Shown here piece after piece: positions 25,331 to 34,117 of a stretch of 64,000 nucleotides of DNA. Under the pieces are notes generated by a model, which did no database searches, was not told where the DNA came from, and saw only the letters and a list, made by a program, of their open reading frames with translations. The DNA comes from Microbacterium foliorum (lineage in GTDB: Bacteria > Actinomycetota > Actinomycetes > Actinomycetales > Microbacteriaceae). Position 1 is the stretch's first letter. The number at the start of each line of letters is the position of its first letter. The stretch covers positions 2,914,001 through 2,978,000 of the forward strand of contig NZ_CP041040.1 in assembly GCF_006385575.1 (NCBI RefSeq), given 5' to 3'. A program made the translations under genes and the position numbers.

Positions 25331-26056
25331 TCAGGCGGTGGGCACGAGCGGAAGCAGCCCGCGCTCGGCGAGGGCGCTGCGAAGACGCGTCACGTCCGGT
25401 AGCACGACATCGGCGCCGGCGAGCTCGAGGGCACTCGAGTCGTGGGCACCCGTGAGTACGCCTGCCACGAAGCCGGCACCGGCGCGGCGCCCTGATTCGA
25501 CATCGCTGACGGTGTCTCCCGCGACGGCGACCGACGCGACCGACGAGGTCTGAGTGCGCAGCAGCGCCGTGAGCACGAGGTCGGGAGCAGGGCGGCCCCG
25601 CCCCGCATCGACCGGCGAGAGCGCCAGGTCGACGAGGTCGTTCCATCCGAGACCGTCGATCAGCGCGTCGCGGGTGACGGGCGCGAACCCGGTCGTGAGC
25701 ACGACGGTCAGACCGGCATCCTTCAGGCTCTGGATCGCGTCCGCAGCTCCTGGGATCTCGGCGACCCCCTGCTCGGCCACGATCTCGGCGTAGGCGCCCT
25801 CGAACGCCGCCGTCGCCTGTTCGGCCGCCGCCCGGTCGCCACCCGCGAGACGCGTGAAGACCTCGATCTTGGACTGCCCCATGGTCGCGCGCACGTGGGC
25901 GAGCGCGTCGTCCCACGGCATCCGGTCGGCGACGCCGGTGCGCTCGGCGGCGCGCTGGAACGCCGTCTCGACGACCCCGTCGTCGAGCACGGTCGTTCCT
26001 GCCATGTCGAGCACGACGAGTTCGAGTGCCGAAGGTGCGGAGAGGTGAGTGGTCAT
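25331..26056 (-). CDS. phosphonatase-like HAD hydrolase
   Basis: The 241-residue protein starts LELVVLDMAGTTVLDDGVVETAF, with DMAGTT in place of the usual DxDGT, as in phosphonoacetaldehyde hydrolase relatives (TIGR03351, PhnX-like). It continues with TTGFAP (motif II), GRGRPAPDLVLTAL (motif III) and VAGDTVSDVESGRRAGAGF (motif IV). I do not see the cap-domain Schiff-base Lys of true PhnX as a clear motif, so direct C-P cleavage of phosphonoacetaldehyde is not certain. Start and the upstream oxidase stop overlap as ATGA (26053-26056). Confidence 0.85.
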   Translation of the reverse strand: MTTHLSAPSALELVVLDMAGTTVLDDGVVETAFQRAAERTGVADRMPWDDALAHVRATMGQSKIEVFTRLAGGDRAAAEQATAAFEGAYAEIVAEQGVAEIPGAADAIQSLKDAGLTVVLTTGFAPVTRDALIDGLGWNDLVDLALSPVDAGRGRPAPDLVLTALLRTQTSSVASVAVAGDTVSDVESGRRAGAGFVAGVLTGAHDSSALELAGADVVLPDVTRLRSALAERGLLPLVPTA

Positions 26057-27201
26057 GAGGTTCCTTCCATTGCAGGTGCCCACCCGAAGGCGGCGGTGAG
26101 ATTCTCTTCGGCGAGCCCCAGACCCGTGGTCATTCCGATGCCGGTGGTCGCGGCGAGCACCAGCACCCCCTCCTCGACCCTGTCGATGAGGAAGTCGTGC
26201 GGCGCCTTGGCGTAGACGCCCTGCCAGCGCTCCAGCACCCGCAGTGCCGGCATGTCGAACAGCGCCTCCGCCTCGGCGAGGAACGCGGTGAACGCCGCCT
26301 CCGGCTGGAACGGCTCTGGTGCGCTCGATGTGGCGTGCGAGTCGCCGATGATGAGCGTGCCGTCGGGCAGCTGCGTGTACATCTGATTCAGGTCGAGCGC
26401 CGCGAGGTCAGGGCGCTCCGCGTGCAGGCGCTCCCGGAGGGCGCCGGTCGCCGCACCGTCGGCGAAGCGTCCGTACCGCACGAGCGACCAGCCGGTCAGC
26501 AGCGGGGCCGCGAGCGGATGCCGGAACGTCACAGCCGCGCGCATCATGTCGAGCGCGCACCGCTCCACGCCGGCGCGCTCGGCCACCTCGGGCAGCAGCT
26601 GGTCGACGTCGTGATTGACCGCGACGACGACAGCGCCGGCCGTGATGGTGCCTCTGGTCGTCTCGACGCGTCGTCCGGCGACGGACGTCACCGCGGTGCG
26701 GAAGCGGAAGTCGACTCCGTGCGCGGCGAGGTGTCGGACGATCGCTGCCGCGGCGGTGCGCGGATCGGTCTGCAGATCGGTCTCGATATGCGCGCCGCCG
26801 ACGAGCGCCTCCGCACGCAGCGGGGCGAGACGCAGCAGCTCGTCGGTCTCCAGCATCCGGATGCCGCCGTCGGTTGCCGCCTGCTCGAGCACGGCGATCT
26901 CGTCTGCGTGTCGAGCGGCGACCAGCGTGCCGCATTCGCGCAGCCAGAAGCCCGCATCGTGAGCGAGGCGCAGCCACAGGTCACGGGAGAGGTCGGCGTA
27001 GCGGCGCGCATCGCCGGTCTGCGCACCGATGCAGAGATGCCCGAAGTTGCGGATCGTCGCGCCGACCGGCGCATCCGCCCTGTCGACGACGATCACCGTC
27101 AGGCCGCGTCGAACCGCGGCATAAGCGGCGCCGAGGCCGATGATGCCCGAGCCCACGACGACGAGGTCCGCGCTGTCATTCGCTCTGCTGTCGCGGTTCA
27201 T
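26053..27201 (-). CDS. FAD-dependent oxidoreductase of phosphonate catabolism
   Basis: The 382-residue DAO-family protein has the dinucleotide motif VVVGSGIIGLGAAYAAVRRGLTVIVVDRAD near residues 13-42, FGHLCIGAQ, and a C-terminal GVLVLAATTGIGMTTGLGLAEENL. It matches the FAD oxidases that sit beside phosphonatase-like hydrolases (TIGR03364), for which oxidative deamination of aminophosphonates related to 2-aminoethylphosphonate has been proposed. Both ends overlap neighbours by four bases (27198-27201 and 26053-26056), so it is co-translated with phnE and the HAD gene. No PhnW transaminase is present in the cluster, consistent with an oxidase taking its place. Confidence 0.87.
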   Translation of the reverse strand: MNRDSRANDSADLVVVGSGIIGLGAAYAAVRRGLTVIVVDRADAPVGATIRNFGHLCIGAQTGDARRYADLSRDLWLRLAHDAGFWLRECGTLVAARHADEIAVLEQAATDGGIRMLETDELLRLAPLRAEALVGGAHIETDLQTDPRTAAAAIVRHLAAHGVDFRFRTAVTSVAGRRVETTRGTITAGAVVVAVNHDVDQLLPEVAERAGVERCALDMMRAAVTFRHPLAAPLLTGWSLVRYGRFADGAATGALRERLHAERPDLAALDLNQMYTQLPDGTLIIGDSHATSSAPEPFQPEAAFTAFLAEAEALFDMPALRVLERWQGVYAKAPHDFLIDRVEEGVLVLAATTGIGMTTGLGLAEENLTAAFGWAPAMEGTS

Positions 27202-28934
27202 CGGAACACCTTTCGCATCCACATCGCGAGTCCTTCGACGACGAGCACCGTGACGAGGATCATCAGCACGATCGCGGTCACCGTCTCGTAACGCGAGCCC
27301 TGGCTCGCGTTGAGCAGGTAGTAGCCGACTCCGCCGCCGCCGACGATGCCGAGGATCGTCGCCGCGCGGATGTTCGTGTCGAGCATGTAGAAGCTGTGCC
27401 CGATGAGCGCCTGCATGCCCTGGGGCACGGTAGCCGAGGTATAGGTCTGCAGGCGGGTGGCGCCGACCGCTCGGAGCGCGCGCTCGGGGCCGCGGTCGAC
27501 CTCTTCGAGAGAGTCGGCGATCAGCTTGCCGAGCAGTCCGATGCCGCCGATCGCGAGGGCGATGACTCCCGCCTGCGCGCCGAGCCCGGTGATCACCACG
27601 AGCACGATCGCGAGGATCAGCTCGGGGATGCCGCGGATGCCGACGAGCAGGAACCGGGCGACGCCGCGTGCACCCGGGCCGGGTGCGACGTTGCTCGCCG
27701 CGAGCGAACCGAGGATCAGCGACGGCAGCAGGGTGAGTACGGTCGCGGCGAGTGCGATGGCGATCGTGTCGCGCATGGCGGCGATCATCGCCGACGCCTC
27801 GTAGCTGCCGAAGGACGGCGGCCAGAACTTCGCGGCGACGTCGGGGAGCTTGGCCCAGAAGGTGAAGAAGTCGAGCCAGTTGATCTGACTGACGACGACG
27901 CTGCCGATCACGACGAGCACCGCGACGACGATGCCGCTCGTGTTGCGCACGCGCTCCGCCGTCCACGGCCGACGCACCGCGGTCTGAGGGCTGGCTGCCC
28001 ATGCGGGTGGTGCGGTCGTGCTCGTGCTCGCCGAGCCGCTGAGGCGAGGGTGGATGATGCGGTCGATCCACGACCGGGTCTGCCGCTGCTGGCCGAGCAT
28101 CGCCCCGCGCACCAGGCTCGAGACGATCTCCATCGCGACGCACAGGATGAAGATGACCAGCGCGATGCCGAGTCCCTTGCCGTAGTTGAGCGACTTGAAC
28201 GCGTACGACATCTCGAGCCCGAGGCCCGCCACGCCCACGTAGCCGAGCACGACGCTGCCGCGCAGGTTGATGTCGTTGCGGTGCAGCACCGTCGCGACCC
28301 AGCTCGGCAGCACCTGCGGAAGGATGCCCGAGGCGAACTCCTGCATCTTCGATCCGCCGGCTGCGCGGATCGCGAGGCGGGGGCCCTCGTCGATCTGCTC
28401 GATCGCGTCGGCGAACATCTTCGAGATCATGCCGATCGAGTGGATGCCGATGGCCAGGATTCCGGGAAGCGTGCCGAGCGAGAACATGAGCACGAACGCC
28501 ATGGCGAGCACGACGTCCGGCAGCGCGCGGGTGAGGACTCCGACGAAACGGGCCGCCGCACGCCATCCGTTGCCGGGGGTCGTGTTGGAGGCAGCGAGGT
28601 AGGCGATCGGCACCGAGAGCACGGCGGCGAGCAGCGTGCCGACGAGCACCAGCCCGACGGTGAGAGCGATCAGCCACGCGAGGTCGGCGGGCTCGGGGAA
28701 CGAGAGTCCGCCGACGCGCGCCATGAAGTTCTCGGCGTTGCCCCAGCTCTGCACCATCGCCGGGATCGAGATGCCGACCTCGTCGACCGCGAGGATGCCG
28801 AGCACGAGGAGAGCCACCAGGGTGAGTCCGGCGGCGATGCGCTCGGCCGAGATCGGACGCCGCGGCGCGCGATCGGAGACGGTGGAGCGTCCGGGAGTCG
28901 CGGGCGCAGCGGGTGCGTCCGAGAGCACGCTCAC
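27198..28934 (-). CDS. phnE: phosphonate ABC transporter permease, two fused PhnE domains
   Basis: The 578-residue protein contains two complete PhnE-like permease domains (about 25-275 and 320-575). Each ends with the EAA-type loop and a repeated C-terminal motif (RPGSVVLGYVGVAGLG and RAATILGIVGGGGVG). The linker at 280-320 is Ser/Thr/Pro-rich. In many bacteria these are separate phnE1/phnE2 genes; here one chain forms the pseudo-dimer. It starts with GTG overlapping the phnC stop by four bases. Confidence 0.92.
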   Translation of the reverse strand: MSVLSDAPAAPATPGRSTVSDRAPRRPISAERIAAGLTLVALLVLGILAVDEVGISIPAMVQSWGNAENFMARVGGLSFPEPADLAWLIALTVGLVLVGTLLAAVLSVPIAYLAASNTTPGNGWRAAARFVGVLTRALPDVVLAMAFVLMFSLGTLPGILAIGIHSIGMISKMFADAIEQIDEGPRLAIRAAGGSKMQEFASGILPQVLPSWVATVLHRNDINLRGSVVLGYVGVAGLGLEMSYAFKSLNYGKGLGIALVIFILCVAMEIVSSLVRGAMLGQQRQTRSWIDRIIHPRLSGSASTSTTAPPAWAASPQTAVRRPWTAERVRNTSGIVVAVLVVIGSVVVSQINWLDFFTFWAKLPDVAAKFWPPSFGSYEASAMIAAMRDTIAIALAATVLTLLPSLILGSLAASNVAPGPGARGVARFLLVGIRGIPELILAIVLVVITGLGAQAGVIALAIGGIGLLGKLIADSLEEVDRGPERALRAVGATRLQTYTSATVPQGMQALIGHSFYMLDTNIRAATILGIVGGGGVGYYLLNASQGSRYETVTAIVLMILVTVLVVEGLAMWMRKVFR

Positions 28935-29776
28935 GAGACGCGGGCCTTGTCGATGTCGGCGATGTCGACCGTGATCTCAGTGAGCTCGTCCTGCACGGCA
29001 CGGATCTCTGCGGTGGTCGTGGCGACGCGACCGTAGATCTCCATGACCTCGGCCTTGGTGAGGTCGCCGGTCGGTGTGTCGAGCACGATCTCGCCGTGGC
29101 GCAGACCGACGATGCGGTCGGCCCACGAGATCGCGAGGTCGACCTGATGCAGGCTGCAGACGACGGTGAGGCACTCGTCTGCGGCGATCTCGCGGATCAG
29201 CGCCATCACCTGATCGCTCGACTCGGGGTCGAGCGAGGCGACGGGTTCGTCGGCGAGCAGGATGTCGGGCTTCTGCATCAGAGCGCGGGCGATGGCGACG
29301 CGCTGCTGCTGGCCGCCCGAGAGGGTGTCGCTGCGCTGGTAGGCGCGGTCGAGGAGTCCGACGCGGTCGAGGTGTTCGAGGGCGCGCAGCTTCGCCGCCT
29401 TCGAATAGCCCCAGAGCCCGAGTCGCGGTCCGCGGATCTCCGACAGCGATCCGGTGAGCACGTTCTCGAGCACGGTGAGGGAGGGCACGAGCTCGAACTG
29501 CTGGAAGATGAATCCCACCCGACTGCGGAGGCGGCGCAGCGCCTTGCCCTTGAGCGTCGGCACCTGGGATCCGAGCACCTCGATCTCGCCGGAGGTCGGC
29601 ACCTCGAGCCCGTCCAGGTGGCGCAGGAGAGTGGACTTGCCCGAGCCGGAGAGTCCGAGCAGCACGACGATCTCGCCGCGCGACACCTGCAGCGACGCGT
29701 TCTTGAGCGCCGTCGTCGAGCCGAAGGTCTTCGTCACGCCGTTCAGGCGGATGAGGGCATCGGATGCCGTGTTCAT
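28931..29776 (-). CDS. phnC: phosphonate ABC transporter ATP-binding protein
   Basis: The 281-residue ATPase has Walker [10 protein letters not shown] (41-49), Q-loop FIFQQFELV, signature [15 protein letters not shown], Walker B ILLADEP and the H-loop CSLHQ. PhnC-typical features include [58 protein letters not shown] precedes the ATG. It lies 140 bases downstream of phnD, with a large hairpin in between, and is coupled to phnE. Confidence 0.93.
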
Positions 29777-29808
29777 GTCAGTTCTCCTCGTGATTCGCTG
29801 CAGTTCGA

Positions 29809-29891
29809 TCGTTGAGCGAGCGAAGCGAGACGAAACGCGGTGGGGGCCCCGACGCGTTTCGTCTCGCTCGCTTCGCTCCCTCGCTCAACGA
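29809..29891. repeat. dispersed palindromic repeat (REP-like) between phnD and phnC
   Basis: TCGTTGAGCGAG (29809-29820) pairs with CTCGCTCAACGA (29880-29891), and GACGAAACGCG on the left arm with CGCGTTTCGTC on the right. The 83-base imperfect inverted repeat has four-base bulges of GCGA-type units. Half of it recurs at 60453-60496 (CGCGTTTCGTCTCG...CCTCGCTCAACGA), so it is a dispersed family. In the phn mRNA it would fold into a stable stem after phnD. Confidence 0.8.
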
Positions 29892-29916
29892 ACGGGAGCG
29901 AAGCGGGTGCAGGGCG

Positions 29917-30846
29917 TCAGCCCTGGCACTGCTCCGCGTCGGTCTCCTTGCAGATGTCGCGGATGAGGTCGTAGTACGCGTCGTCGACCGGCTTCGTGGC
30001 GAAGAAGACGCTGCGGAACGAGTCGCTGTCAGCACTGTCGACGCCGGCGGCGATGATGTCGTCGATCGTGACCTCCGACAGGCCGTCGACGAGTTCCTTG
30101 GCGACGTCGTCGGGCAGCGCCGACGCGTAGACGAGCGGAGCACCGGGCACCATGGTCTCGTCGATGACCTTCACGGCATCCGACTTCTCGACCTCGGAGT
30201 CCTCGGCGAAGCCGACCTCGCACTCGACGCCCTCGCCGACCTTCTGCACGCTGACGTCGTGCTTGCCCGCGAAGACCGGGGTGATGTCGGTCTTCGGGTC
30301 GATGCCCGCCTCGAGCAGGTTGTACGACGGGAAGAGGTAGCCCGAGGTCGACGACGGATCGACGAAGCAGACCTTCTTGCCCTTGAAGTCCTCGATGCTC
30401 GAGATGTCACTGTCGGCGGGCACGATCGCCTGCGAGTAGTAACCGGGCTCCTGGCCCTCTTCGGTCACGATCGACGAGATCGGGGTGAGCTTCGCACCGT
30501 TGTTCGTGGCGGTGACGTAGGTGAAGCCCGAGAACGAGGCCACGTCGACCTTGCCGGCGACGGAGGCTTCGATGAGTGCCGCGTAGTCGGTGGACTCGTG
30601 GTATTCGACCGACTTGCCGGTGATCTCGGCGATGTAGTCCATGAGCGGCTGGTAGTTCGTCTCGGTGTCGACCGAGTCGGGCACGACGCCGAAGACGAGC
30701 GTGTTCTCGTCGACTGCGAAGCCGCTCGTGGTCGCCGATGCGTCGGCGTCGGACGCGCCGGTGGCCTCTGCGGTGCCTGAGCAGGCGGCGAGGCCGAGCG
30801 CGAGGATCGCGGCACCGGCGAGTACGGGGAGAGCGCGGAGCTTCAT
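29917..30846 (-). CDS. phnD: phosphonate ABC transporter substrate-binding lipoprotein
   Basis: The 309-residue precursor has a lipoprotein signal peptide (MKLRALPVLAGAAILALGLAAC with the lipobox LAAC, Cys about 22) and a PhnD domain: LVFGVVPDSVDTETNYQPLMDYIAEITGKSVEYHESTDYAALIEASVAGKVDVASFSGFTYV, and VCFVDPSSTSGYLFPSYNLL with the phosphonate-binding Ser-Thr-Ser-Gly. GAAAGG precedes the ATG. It captures phosphonates outside the membrane for PhnE/PhnC. As first gene of the operon it is separated from phnC by the REP hairpin. Confidence 0.94.
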   Translation of the reverse strand: MKLRALPVLAGAAILALGLAACSGTAEATGASDADASATTSGFAVDENTLVFGVVPDSVDTETNYQPLMDYIAEITGKSVEYHESTDYAALIEASVAGKVDVASFSGFTYVTATNNGAKLTPISSIVTEEGQEPGYYSQAIVPADSDISSIEDFKGKKVCFVDPSSTSGYLFPSYNLLEAGIDPKTDITPVFAGKHDVSVQKVGEGVECEVGFAEDSEVEKSDAVKVIDETMVPGAPLVYASALPDDVAKELVDGLSEVTIDDIIAAGVDSADSDSFRSVFFATKPVDDAYYDLIRDICKETDAEQCQG

Positions 30847-30905
30847 GAGGACCTTTCAGAGTGGGAGGGGTGATCCACGAGCAACTCTGACAGGACAACG
30901 GTCGA

Positions 30906-30933
30906 GATATATACCTAACTTGCAAGAGTTCAA
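30906..30933 (-). promoter_or_regulatory. candidate phnD promoter
   Basis: On the minus strand TTGAAC (30933-30928) and TATATC (30911-30906) are 16 bases apart, about 60 bases before the phnD start. GGTATATATC at the -10 resembles the GT-N-TATA-type half-sites bound by HutC/GntR proteins, and CTTGCAAG lies in the spacer. The divergent GntR protein is the likely regulator; this is inference. Confidence 0.45.
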
Positions 30934-31015
30934 GGTCCGTTCACCCTGTCTTTCCCGGAATGAACATCGACAGAACACGGCACCCACCTTCGAGGTCAGC
31001 AAGTAGTATGCCTAT

Positions 31016-31759
31016 GTGGCCGAAGCTGTATACACCCAGATCGCAGACGACCTGCGCGCCCAGATCGCGGCGGGCACTCTGCGCCCCGGCGACGACGTGC
31101 CCACCGAGTCGGAGCTCGCCGAACGCTGGCACACGTCGCGCGGTCCCATCCGCAACGCCCTGGCGGCTCTGCGCAGCGAGGGCCTGATCGAGACCGGACG
31201 TGGCCGCCCCGCTCGTGTCGTCTCCCGCAAGGCGAGTCAGGCCGTCGACATGTCGGTGCCGTTCACGCGCTGGGCCCGCGATCTCGGCGTGACTCCCGGC
31301 GCGCAGACGCAGGAGCTGAGCCTTCGCCGCGCAGGCGACCGCGCCGAGCTTCTCGGCGTCTCCCCCGATGACACGATCGTCGGCGTCGTGCGGCTCCGCC
31401 TGCTCGACGGTCGGCCGACGATGCTCGAGCGCCTGTTCTACACCGAAGCCGTGGGGCGCCGACTGCTCGACGTCGACACCGACGCGATCTCGATCACCGA
31501 GTACCTGGGGTCGGTCGGGCACCCGATCGTCGGACTCGAGCACCAGATCGACGCGGTCGCGGCCGATGATCAGGATGCCGCTCTGCTGCGGGTGCCACGG
31601 GGGACGCCGATCCTTCGGCTCAGCCGGATCTCTCGCGACGCGAGCGGACGCATCTTCGAGGCGTCCGAGGATCGCTACCTCAGCGAGGTGGTGCGATTCA
31701 CAGTCGCGGCGTCCGGGATCTCGACGGACGGGCACTACATGCGTGCGGTGGGCGGCTAG
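31016..31759 (+). CDS. GntR-family (HutC/PhnF-like) regulator of the phosphonate operon
   Basis: The 247-residue protein has a GntR winged helix (1-75; VPTESELAERWHTSRGPIRNALAALRSEGLIETGRG) and a UTRA ligand-binding domain (about 90-240). It is transcribed divergently from phnD across 169 bases, as PhnF-type repressors are. TAGTAT (31004-31009) lies six bases before the GTG start, so translation is probably leaderless. A paralogue is at 9930-10667. Confidence 0.87.
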   Translation: MAEAVYTQIADDLRAQIAAGTLRPGDDVPTESELAERWHTSRGPIRNALAALRSEGLIETGRGRPARVVSRKASQAVDMSVPFTRWARDLGVTPGAQTQELSLRRAGDRAELLGVSPDDTIVGVVRLRLLDGRPTMLERLFYTEAVGRRLLDVDTDAISITEYLGSVGHPIVGLEHQIDAVAADDQDAALLRVPRGTPILRLSRISRDASGRIFEASEDRYLSEVVRFTVAASGISTDGHYMRAVGG

Positions 31760-32094: not shown

Positions 32095-33237
32095 TCAGAC
32101 GATCGGCAGCAGGGCTGACACGACCCAGCGTCCGTCTGCTTCTCCGGCACTGAACTCACCGCTGGCGCCGAGGACGCGCTCGGCCATTCGCCCGACGCCG
32201 GTGCGGCTCGACGAGAGCTCGCGACGCGGCGTGACAGAGAGAGGGCTGCTCACCGTCAGCTTCGCGGAGTCGTCATCGATGTCGAATCGGATCAGGACTT
32301 CGCCTTCGCCTGCGTACTTGAGGACGTTGGTGGCCGACTCGCGCAGGATGCGCGCGAGGATGATCTCGGCTGCGCGTGGGATGCGCTCGTCAGAGGGGTC
32401 GCCGTCGACGATCACGGCGTGACCCGCGGATTCGAACTCCTGCTGGGCTTCGTCGACGGAGGCCGCCAGATCGCCCGAGGGCATGCCCTCGGACCGGGGT
32501 CCGTCGTCTGCGAGGTCGATCACGAAGCGGAGATCGGTCATCGCCTTGCGTGCGGCGATGCGGATCGCCTCCTGCGATTCGCTGCTGGTGCGATCGTCGT
32601 CGAGCATCTGCACGTGCAGCGCCACCACCGTGAGGTGGTGCGCGATGCTGTCGTGCAACTCGCCGGCGATCCAACGTCGCTCAGCGAGTACTGCCTGCCG
32701 TTCCTGCTCGGCCTTCTCAGCCAGCTGCACCTCGAGCGTCCGCCCTCGGGCGAACGCGATGCGAAGTGCGAAGCCGACGGCGCCGGATACTGCGGCGCCG
32801 ACCAGGAAGATCGCGATATTGAAGGCATCCCTCGAGTCGCCAGTGACGACCAGTGCGGATGCGAGGAGGAAAACTCCGGCATAGGACAGGACCAAGGAGG
32901 TCCATCCCAGACGCACGACCAAGCCTGCCGCGAAAGCGGCGGTCGTGAGCACCTGGGCTTCGATGCCGGGGATGAAGGAGAGTGCGAACACCACGCCGAG
33001 GGCGTATGTCGCGATCAGTGGGGACCAGAGGTACAGGGCCAAGACCGCGGTGGATGCGATCCCGAGTGCCGCCGTCAGAGGATCCAATCCCGGAGGAAGG
33101 AACAGTCCGACTGTGTCGAAGGTGACGATCGTTCCGACGACCGCCAGTACGGCGATCCGTTCGATCGTGCTGAGCTTCTCGCCCTTTCCGAGTCGGGTGA
33201 CGTCTGCGCGTTCACCCGACGGAAGACTTGAAGCCAT
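32095..33237 (-). CDS. NarL/DesK-type sensor histidine kinase
   Basis: The 380-residue kinase has an N-terminal membrane part (about 25-160, five or six helices with very short loops), a coiled region (160-188), the HisKA_3 motif ERRWIAGELHDSIAHHL with phosphoacceptor His195, and a HATPase domain with N-box RESATNVLKYA and G2-like TGVGRMAERV. The usual DxGxG of the G1 box is replaced by VSSPLSV, as in some actinobacterial kinases. Without an extracellular domain it probably senses a membrane-level signal or peptide. AAAGGAG lies before the ATG. It is preceded 29 bases upstream by a 15-codon ORF on the same strand and is divergent from its response regulator. Confidence 0.9.
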   Translation of the reverse strand: MASSLPSGERADVTRLGKGEKLSTIERIAVLAVVGTIVTFDTVGLFLPPGLDPLTAALGIASTAVLALYLWSPLIATYALGVVFALSFIPGIEAQVLTTAAFAAGLVVRLGWTSLVLSYAGVFLLASALVVTGDSRDAFNIAIFLVGAAVSGAVGFALRIAFARGRTLEVQLAEKAEQERQAVLAERRWIAGELHDSIAHHLTVVALHVQMLDDDRTSSESQEAIRIAARKAMTDLRFVIDLADDGPRSEGMPSGDLAASVDEAQQEFESAGHAVIVDGDPSDERIPRAAEIILARILRESATNVLKYAGEGEVLIRFDIDDDSAKLTVSSPLSVTPRRELSSSRTGVGRMAERVLGASGEFSAGEADGRWVVSALLPIV

Positions 33238-33266
33238 ACTTCAGTATCTCCTTTCCGCCATATAGA

Positions 33267-33314
33267 TTAACGGTAGAAGCCGAAAAAGAGTCCAACCTGG
33301 TTCCAGAAAGACAT
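33267..33314 (-). CDS. 15-residue peptide ORF upstream of the sensor kinase (candidate signal peptide)
   Basis: Read on the minus strand, AAAGGAGGTGA (plus-strand TCACCTCCTT, 33321-33330) complements the 16S rRNA 3' end over about 11 bases. Nine bases after its GGAGG an ATG opens MSFWNQVGLFFGFYR and a TAA stop. The kinase start with its own AAAGGAG follows 29 bases later. Six of 15 residues are aromatic, with a Trp and a C-terminal Arg; there is no leader or processing site. No better ribosome-binding site exists in the window, which strongly argues that it is translated. Role as pheromone, regulator of the kinase or leader peptide is inference. Confidence 0.65.
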   Translation of the reverse strand: MSFWNQVGLFFGFYR

Positions 33315-33398
33315 AGAGATTCACCTCCTTTATTGCACTTTTGACTAGCGATGTACTCATCTTCTCGGTGATCTTCTCGCACCACATCTGTCGCACGT

Positions 33399-33424
33399 CT
33401 AGACCTCGATAGCCAAAGGTCTAG
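33399..33424. promoter_or_regulatory. inverted repeat CTAGACCT-N10-AGGTCTAG between the divergent two-component genes
   Basis: Two perfect 8-bp arms (33399-33406 and 33417-33424) lie in the 149-base stretch between the peptide-kinase transcript and the response regulator gene. An 18-bp centre-to-centre spacing suits a dimeric NarL/LuxR-type regulator. Probable autoregulatory operator. Confidence 0.55.
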
Positions 33425-33463
33425 GAGATCGCGTCGCAGGTCCACCCCGGTTAGGCTTCGTCC

Positions 33464-34117
33464 ATGTCCCAAATCCGCGTCGTGATCGTCGATGACGATC
33501 CCCTGGTGCGCTCAGCGCTCTCTCACTTCGTCTCACGAGACCCCGAGATCACCGTGGTCGCAGAGGCGGAGTCCGGGCTCGAGGGCATTGAGGTGGTGGG
33601 ACGCGAGCATCCTGATGTCGTGATGATGGACGTGCAGATGCCCGAGATGAATGGCATCGAGGCGACTGCTGTCATCAGTGAGCGATGGCCCGAGGTGAAG
33701 ATCCTGGCCGTCACCACGCTCGACGGCAGCGACACCGTTCTGCCTATGCTCAGTGCGGGTGCATCGGGGTATCTGCTGAAGGATTCCAGCGCTGCGAGCA
33801 TTCTCGAGGGTGTGCGGGAGGTCTACAGCGGAGCGAGCTCACTGTCCCCGCGCATCGCCTCGCTGCTGATCAAGCACGTGCGTGACACGGAGCCGGTCGG
33901 TGGCGACGACTCGCTCGAGGCGCTCACCGATCGCGAGCAGGAGGTGCTGCAGCGTCTGGCCCAGGGAATGTCGAACGCGGAGATCGCTCGCACACTGATC
34001 GTGTCAGAGGGAACGGTGAAGGCTCATCTGGGCCGCATCATGTCGAAGTGGCACGTTCGCGATCGAGTGCAGATCCTGGTCACGGCAGCGCACGCCGGCC
34101 TCGTCGACTTCCGCTGA
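33464..34117 (+). CDS. NarL/LuxR-family response regulator
   Basis: The 217-residue protein has a receiver domain (Asp10-12 acidic pocket, phosphorylation site Asp56 in VVMMDVQMP, conserved Thr in AVTTLD, Lys in YLLKDSS) and a C-terminal LuxR-type HTH (about 150-210; LTDREQEVLQRLAQGMSNAEIARTLIVSEGTVKAHLGRIMSKWHV). It is divergent from its kinase. TAGGCT (33452-33457) is six bases before the ATG, so it is leaderless. Confidence 0.93.
   Translation: MSQIRVVIVDDDPLVRSALSHFVSRDPEITVVAEAESGLEGIEVVGREHPDVVMMDVQMPEMNGIEATAVISERWPEVKILAVTTLDGSDTVLPMLSAGASGYLLKDSSAASILEGVREVYSGASSLSPRIASLLIKHVRDTEPVGGDDSLEALTDREQEVLQRLAQGMSNAEIARTLIVSEGTVKAHLGRIMSKWHVRDRVQILVTAAHAGLVDFR

Follow-up and report, generated by a model that had tools for sequence, protein, structure and literature searches.

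A conserved very short peptide gene paired with a DesK-like sensor kinase in Microbacterium, and its possible role as a leaderless ligand

Can an open reading frame (ORF) of only 15 codons, lodged between the genes for a sensor kinase and a response regulator, be a gene in its own right, and if so, what does its product do? The question is raised by a locus in the stretch of Microbacterium foliorum DNA analysed here (the window; 64,000 nucleotides), in which the ORF sits between a regulator gene on the plus strand and a kinase gene on the minus strand. Read on the minus strand, it starts with an ATG at 33314 and runs through 15 codons to a TAA (MSFWNQVGLFFGFYR and stop; 33267..33314), preceded by the Shine-Dalgarno (SD) sequence AAAGGAGGTGA at 33321..33331. 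SD, ATG, 15-residue frame and stop had all been claimed in an initial annotation of the window and were re-read in the sequence, as were the 29 bases that separate the peptide stop codon from the kinase ATG (33237), the divergent regulator starting at 33464, and the inverted repeat CTAGACCT-N10-AGGTCTAG between kinase and regulator, which lies exactly at 33399..33424. The nine-base spacing of SD and ATG given in that annotation needs amendment: the ATG follows AAAGGAGGTGA after six bases, and nine holds when counting from GGAGG. The host, which the annotation took to be an actinobacterium, is indeed given as Microbacterium by the names in protein searches. The ORF is very short, has a strong ribosome-binding site, lacks a signal sequence and lies beside a candidate receptor gene; 15 residues are too few to hold a signal peptide.

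Whether the ORF is maintained was asked of the loci of related kinases. A kinase alignment of 23 sequences was used for one scan of a genome collection, from which the best 80 of 106 relatives were obtained; 64 loci (L001-L064; best-segment identity 48-99%) were kept and 16 partial ones at 24-34% were dropped. An SD-led ORF of 13-15 residues precedes the kinase in all 64 kept orthologs and in the window (65/65), with a GGAGGTG-type SD in most orthologs. The initial annotation had proposed comparing frame and SD across orthologous loci; both are kept in 65/65, and the idea of a real gene paired with the kinase stands. A regular expression that required, behind a strong SD, a W directly preceded by an aromatic or aliphatic residue matched 62/64 orthologs, and the two that it missed carry the peptide too, as MSVWEQLARAFGLYR in L041 and as a tandem array in L063. 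Among the 65 loci the usual pattern is M-[ST]-F-W-x-x-[VL]-[GAC]-x-[FL]-[FL]-G-[ILFV]-x-R; the loci hold 46 distinct peptides in all, 15 residues long in 55 loci, 14 in eight and 13 in two. W4 and G12 are invariant among the 38 distinct fifteen-residue peptides, and R15 is present in 32 of them; diverged species within this set (clade A) differ in peptide type, for instance MTFWQQVGKFFGLVR vs MSFWEQLARLFGAIR. The regulator is divergent in 64/64 ortholog loci, being truncated at the contig end in L003 and L052 and in two pieces in L062, where the kinase frame is broken as well. Peptide and kinase genes are 28-32 bases apart in most loci, with larger spacings of 98 bases in L054 and 83 in L061. 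Relatives outside the genus came from Leucobacter, Tessaracoccus, a Ruaniaceae genome and metagenome-assembled genomes (MAGs) labelled Propionibacterium, Actinomyces and Ancrocorticia; a Propionibacterium-labelled MAG holds two systems (L054, L057) with slightly different peptides.

The pattern of substitution agrees with a coding function. For the peptides of fifteen residues (55 loci with 47 different DNA sequences, whose pairs are non-independent), pooled pairwise pN/pS is 0.47 in frame, against 0.88 and 1.54 when the frame is shifted by one or two bases; selection evidently keeps the residues rather than the codons, synonymous change being free. ORFs of 13-15 codons with a strong SD number 74 on both strands of the 873 kb making up the 64 ortholog loci, and only six of these, the array loci L049 and L063 left out, are anything other than the peptide in front of the kinase. 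By these counts the pairing of ORF and kinase lies far beyond chance, and the comparison of sequences strongly supports a genuine gene whose occurrence is bound to that of the kinase.

In two lineages the peptide gene has been amplified. A Leucobacter MAG (L049) carries five units of 100 bases, each with an SD and MTFWNALAYFLGFR; across the five, 5/45 coding columns vary and the peptide remains identical, vs 18/55 non-coding columns, and the first four units give 3/45 vs 14/55. In Tessaracoccus caeni (L063), MRFWECLARLKGPIG is accompanied by two complete copies of the MSFWHKL[AV]RLMGVG type, another copy cut where the sequence is unread, and perhaps MSFWRRLARLLDPYD, which would start with TTG and lacks a clear SD. 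An SD precedes most array copies in both.

How strictly peptide and kinase occur together can also be judged from a census of the genus, in which the kinase was found in 35/149 genomes (E 1e-70 or better), 34 of them with an intact gene. The start of the peptide is present at all 34 intact kinases, and 32 peptides were read entire: 30/30 in the fetched census loci, together with G839 and G833; for G853 and G906 the evidence is a pattern match to the first part of the peptide beside the kinase. In the remaining genome, G106, the kinase and peptide frames are both broken, which may reflect joint decay or an assembly error. Looking away from the kinase, a looser peptide pattern matched 53 places in 48/149 genomes of the genus; of the 30 loci read, 13 hold the peptide in its place before the kinase, whereas the matches in the other 17 are different ORFs, from all of which the motif is absent. 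One of these 17, L165, is 15 residues long, without motif or kinase. A family-wide pattern search matched 12/398 genomes. Among the nine loci read (all except L084, L085 and L087), the three same-genus matches lie at the kinase (one being the broken G106), and a simple regular expression found no kinase motif at the remaining matches read. An order-wide search matched 8/396 genomes: the peptide is present at four loci in Microbacterium, and the other four matches (L102-L105), from different genera, were judged by the matched bases alone. Class-wide profile searches of 296 genomes, at E 1e-50 and 1e-45, found the clade-A kinase and a second kinase clade, described below, only in the genus of the window, although the ortholog scan had reached the other genera named above, and a plasmid search gave no match at E 1e-40.

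That second clade (clade B) emerged from profile searches reaching more distant kinases, one of which, in G355 (L175), has MGIFYIFGKMIGIFR in front. A search with the L175 kinase found 11/149 genomes. Eight close orthologs, 59-69% identical, all have an SD and a peptide of 13 or 15 residues: MSIFYVFGKMIGIFR, MWYWLGQVLRIWK, MWYWLGQLIGIFK (twice), MWDWLGRWLGIWK (twice), MWDWLGRYLGIWK and MWYWIGQQLGIWK. With L175 included, clade B thus has its own peptides in 9/9 loci and a divergent regulator in 9/9, and GACGAAAGTCG occupies a set position upstream of the peptide ATG, also in 9/9, as part of a 22-base matched stretch that begins 97 or 98 bases upstream. The layout is the same as in clade A, whereas peptide and operator are different, and as a matter of sequence the clade-B pairing of peptide and kinase is firm. 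Beyond it lie three remoter hits: L200 and L201 show, respectively, MMTVWTWLCQQLGVCSN (by eye) and a 24-residue ORF ending MWPLICQWLRICH, and in L202, 37% identical to a clade-B kinase, the peptide was not found; L207 has a GTG-started ORF ending TWLCEVFGICD (by eye), and L174 has MFASSIWTALCKLLRACS. The genome of the window itself contains a second system (L176), whose kinase is 32% identical over a 237-residue aligned stretch and which has MILEMLAGGFWTELCKVLGLGH; in the sole ortholog found (L191; G876), neither the W nor the stop is kept. This genome encodes 13 HisKA_3 kinases, and such a peptide accompanies only two of them. Among the eleven others, four are preceded by short ORFs of no relation, and three could not be read cleanly (L177 is cut off; the frame is doubtful in L180 and L181). 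A family wider than clades A and B, against which L202, L191 and the count of two in 13 tell, is best regarded as a lead. It is tempting to go further and propose a broad, unrecognised actinobacterial class of DesK-like kinases, in which every kinase would have its own short leaderless aromatic peptide, bound directly by the membrane domain. Two clades of this class, A and B, are supported here, with W-x-x-L-C or W-L-C ORFs before distant kinases, one of them in the genome of the window, as further candidates; we rate it somewhat short of an even chance.

The kinase (32095..33237, minus strand; 380 aa) is assigned to the DesK-like HisKA_3 sensor kinases by domain, profile and fold searches. 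Its HisKA_3 domain scores 36.2 bits against a cut-off of 24, a profile search returns DesK first (E 3.3e-19), with the cytoplasmic part also matching VraS, and the best Foldseek hits are DesK, although the fold search is uninformative on the membrane part because the aligned ranges were not displayed. An AlphaFold2 model built with 57 sequences (pLDDT 77.5, pTM 0.45), adopted after an earlier model with a pLDDT of 64 had been discarded, places helices at residues 24-46, 53-68, 73-87, 93-110, 113-133 and from 137 onward, with connecting loops of two to six residues and the cytoplasmic part behind them. A simple hydropathy scan marks residues from about 22 to 163 as hydrophobic and does not resolve six separate helices. 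The model thus predicts six membrane helices for the kinase and leaves no space in which a sensor domain could lie outside. The regulator (33464..34117, plus strand; 217 aa), with receiver and GerE domains, is of the NarL/LuxR type.

Peptide distance follows membrane-domain distance when the catalytic part is controlled for (partial r 0.468, from 64/65 loci with L062 left out, the distance pairs being non-independent), a value reached by 0/999 permutations; the reverse test gives -0.048. Under wider controls, comprising the catalytic parts and the regulator, the coupling is 0.42 (62 loci in the comparison with control windows). None of 110 fifteen-residue control windows from the regulator and the cytoplasmic part of the kinase reaches the peptide value, the highest being 0.30. 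Two windows in the N-terminal tail of the kinase, however, track the membrane domain at 0.41 on average, and the upstream DNA does so at 0.25. Since the tail is about equal to the peptide and the upstream DNA reaches 0.25, the coupling, which peaks in the half of the membrane domain closest to the peptide gene, may reflect physical linkage.

The intergenic region suggests how the three genes may be controlled. The inverted repeat at 33399..33424 is a putative regulator site whose half-site was matched by regular expression in 59/65 loci, and in 58 of these 59 it lies 106-116 bases from the peptide ATG. Six of the 65 loci were missed by the expression; L020 has a near match by eye, and no half-site was recognised in the distant loci L054, L057, L060, L061 and L063. 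With up to three mismatches allowed, the palindrome has one match in the window, where 0.06 would be expected, and a 25-base stretch of it likewise has one match in the 3.62-Mb genome. That the operator occurs once in the genome, at the sensitivity used, suggests autoregulation. A relaxed half-site search of the genome found 8 places vs 15 and 15 for the reversed control, and therefore no second target of the regulator can be named; a literature search on the regulator-site question found nothing.

Candidate promoter elements accompany each gene. On the minus strand, a 58-locus alignment shows the conserved block CCGAGAAGATGAAT, containing a putative -10 box of the peptide promoter, GAAGAT (33359..33364), and the block GACAGATGTGG (consensus GTCAGATGTGC; 33382..33392), a possible -35 or activator region. 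Closer to the kinase, a -10-like hexamer present in most loci, GATACT in the window (33243..33248, minus strand), would give a leaderless kinase transcript: the first base of such a hexamer, mostly GATA[ACG]T, falls between -13 and -11 relative to the kinase start in 52/65 loci by regular expression, a 53rd lies at -16, and several of the other 12 loci have a near variant by eye. In clade B, GATAATC with a start a few bases on was matched in 7/9 loci, and the other two have CATAAT. In most clade-A loci the same kinase-proximal stretch could double as an SD (AGGAGA). On the plus strand, a putative -10 box for a leaderless regulator transcript, TAGGCT (33452..33457), ends six bases before the regulator ATG, and an AGCCTA-type element precedes the regulator start in 59/65 loci by a very loose regular expression. 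The hexamer before the kinase suggests a leaderless kinase mRNA, made from a separate promoter that would lie past the end of the peptide gene. From the promoter-box pattern, kinase and regulator would seem to have leaderless starts of their own, while the peptide gene is preceded by a strong SD and by the operator.

Which mechanism would unite these features? The initial annotation saw the peptide as driving the two-component system, whether as a pheromone, a kinase-binding regulator or a secreted peptide; on the sequence these are candidate roles. We propose, with about an even chance of being right, that the peptide is leaderless and serves as cognate ligand to the kinase encoded next to it, the whole forming an autoregulatory loop. 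The peptide, exported by an unlinked route or acting from inside, would reach the kinase at the membrane and act on its six-helix domain. Once phosphorylated, the regulator would bind the intergenic palindrome and so govern how fast the peptide gene is transcribed, which would close the circuit of peptide, kinase and regulator; its sign would more likely be positive and pheromone-like. The scheme draws from the sequence the ORF, its frame conservation, the kinase pairing, the divergent regulator, the palindrome, the arrays and the second clade, to which are joined, as steps that we infer, the promoter boxes, regulator binding, peptide-kinase binding, export and the loop sign. It is the best mechanism in light of the 65/65 and 34/34 pairing, the residue conservation, the clade-matched peptide type, the coupling, and the predicted lack of an outside kinase domain. 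Against it stand the lack of room for a signal peptide, the possibility that the coupling is linkage, the half-site missing in five loci, and the neighbourhood: among the ORFs flanking 11 loci, inspected by eye, no export or processing gene was recognised, and no gene is common beyond Microbacterium.

The rival that survives best, although we hold it to be unlikely, makes the peptide an output of the system: a membrane-active aromatic peptide, presumably formylated, that would be made when the kinase feels a membrane disturbance. By analogy, it might resemble a phenol-soluble modulin or a minimal bacteriocin, with tandem copies raising the dose. The tandem arrays (L049, L063), most copies of which have an SD, suit such a role, as do the hydrophobic character of the peptides, their mean net charge of about +1.4, and an operator seen, at the sensitivity used, only before the peptide. 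Helical amphipathicity, however, barely exceeds that of shuffled sequences (mean z 0.45 for 46 clade-A peptides, with moment z from -2.25 to 2.27, and 0.91 for seven clade-B peptides), no adjoining exporter was recognised by eye, and pairing with one kinase and clade-specific peptides suit a ligand better.

Next in order, and also improbable in our estimate, the peptide might remain in the cell, insert at the inner membrane face and clamp or activate its kinase, giving feedback without cell-to-cell signalling in the manner of MgrB and SafA, which are small membrane regulators. The lack of a signal sequence, the aromatic residues and basic end that would befit an interfacial peptide, the one-to-one pairing, and a modelled kinase sensor consisting of membrane helices and short loops all accord with this reading; tandem arrays of identical copies, however, seem unusual for a stoichiometric regulator, and 13-15 residues are short for crossing a membrane. 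A role as a cis-acting leader, controlling the kinase gene by translation or attenuation, is very unlikely: the ORF does lie 28-32 bases ahead of the kinase in most loci, but residues are kept and codons are not, the spacing grows to 98 bases in L054 and 83 in L061, tandem arrays occur, about 29 intervening bases give an attenuator little room, and the -10-like box at the kinase start, which suggests a separate leaderless transcript in both clades, disfavours such a leader. The attenuator or leader reading was accordingly dropped for its conflict with residue conservation, arrays, variable spacing and the kinase -10-like box. A chance ORF or alignment artefact, for which its shortness and nothing beyond could be cited, is scarcely credible given its presence in 65/65 loci, the six comparable ORFs elsewhere in 873 kb (array loci excluded) and the shifted-frame pN/pS controls. 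A leaderless ligand in an autoregulatory loop is thus the reading that appears most likely, in preference to an effector peptide and an intracellular regulator.

What is conserved, as judged by sequence comparison, is evidently a very short peptide gene with a DesK-like kinase as its partner, sometimes amplified and paralleled in a second clade, and this points to an unrecognised peptide-signalling arrangement in actinobacteria. Microbacterium and its relatives are widespread environmental actinobacteria. If the peptide is the ligand, peptide sensing in these bacteria would be very simple, with no leader, no outside sensor domain and no recognised processing gene, and the system would be a model for ligand recognition by membrane-only kinases, clade-specific peptides and kinases being swappable. 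Gene callers usually skip ORFs under 20 codons, and for that reason such ORFs before sensor kinases merit a systematic search. A literature search that included the peptide letter strings, with preprints and most subscription papers outside its scope, found nothing on these peptides. According to a 2016 review, quorum sensing in Microbacterium had no known evidence behind it (PMC4748050); the broad class, if true, would bring peptide signalling to that genus.

The arrangement has likenesses to several known systems and is identical to none of those compared here. It shares with DesK-DesR and LiaS/VraS-type systems the cytoplasmic kinase part, the NarL/LuxR-type regulator and a membrane part made up of helices, with no domain outside. 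DesK is a sensor of membrane fluidity that works without any peptide, and we know of no peptide gene of such a kind beside DesK-DesR or LiaS/VraS-type systems. Like Agr, ComCDE and ComQXPA, it brings together a peptide gene, a membrane kinase and a regulator, with control of its own promoter. Those systems have longer leader-bearing precursors, processing or export genes and mostly HPK10-type kinases, whereas here a HisKA_3 kinase has at its side an ORF of 13-15 residues (in 65/65 loci, rather than a long leader-bearing precursor), and inspection of 11 loci by eye brought no recognisable processing gene to light. Phenol-soluble modulins are likewise short leaderless peptides, sometimes in tandem copies; in staphylococci they have about 20-45 residues, are clearly amphipathic, are controlled by Agr and use a dedicated exporter, in contrast to the weak amphipathicity of the peptides described here. 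There is also a likeness in form to the leaderless communication peptides (LCPs) described with RopB in Firmicutes (PMC10518010): as there, a very short ORF without a signal sequence has a strong ribosome-binding site and a receptor gene near by. The receptor of that account is cytosolic and of the RRNPPA type, unlike the candidate in these Actinobacteria, a DesK-like membrane kinase; instead of a RopB/Rgg (RRNPPA) receptor, the genes adjoining the peptide encode a HisKA_3 kinase and a NarL/LuxR-type regulator.

A direct repeat, ATCTTCTCG, lies inside the predicted promoter of the peptide ORF at window positions 33359-33379, its two copies 12 bases apart. In the Leucobacter MAG whose locus (L049) carries a tandem array of five 100-base units, a GGTACTGAACG block is present in the array units (L049:2466-2963) and is similar to the region preceding the kinase start; because of this resemblance, each copy in the array may possess its own promoter.

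The M. foliorum genome encodes a second HisKA_3 kinase with a divergent regulator, outside the window, and between the two is placed an SD-led ORF of 22 residues, MILEMLAGGFWTELCKVLGLGH (L176:1321-1420; G000:C1, about 32.1 kb), which is not conserved in L191, the single ortholog found. Among the more distant kinases, inspection by eye revealed a 30-residue ORF with a GTG start and the end TWLCEVFGICD directly upstream of the kinase at L207, and this end resembles MMTVWTWLCQQLGVCSN, which precedes the L200 kinase.

Nine-residue SD-led ORFs, MSFWKIFDQ and MSFWKILEK, each preceded by similar sequence, occur near base 1510 in L086 and L089, which belong to two further genera of the family, and a simple regex detected no kinase motif within about 1.5 kb of them. 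At L150:1500-1750, a longer membrane protein begins with the peptide-like MTFWSSFWDIIWWFFWAFVFISYL, and no kinase motif was found adjoining it.

In one genome of the genus, the peptide and kinase frames are both broken (L091; G106:C1, about 596.2-597.4 kb), which may reflect either joint decay or assembly indels.

Adjoining the kinase, at window positions 26053-31759, are a GntR regulator and ORFs that by eye resemble a binding protein, an ATPase and a permease. ORFs similar to this set occupy the same place in three loci among the kinase orthologs (L007, L020 and L036), and the arrangement in the window looks, by eye, like that of a phosphonate-type uptake operon.
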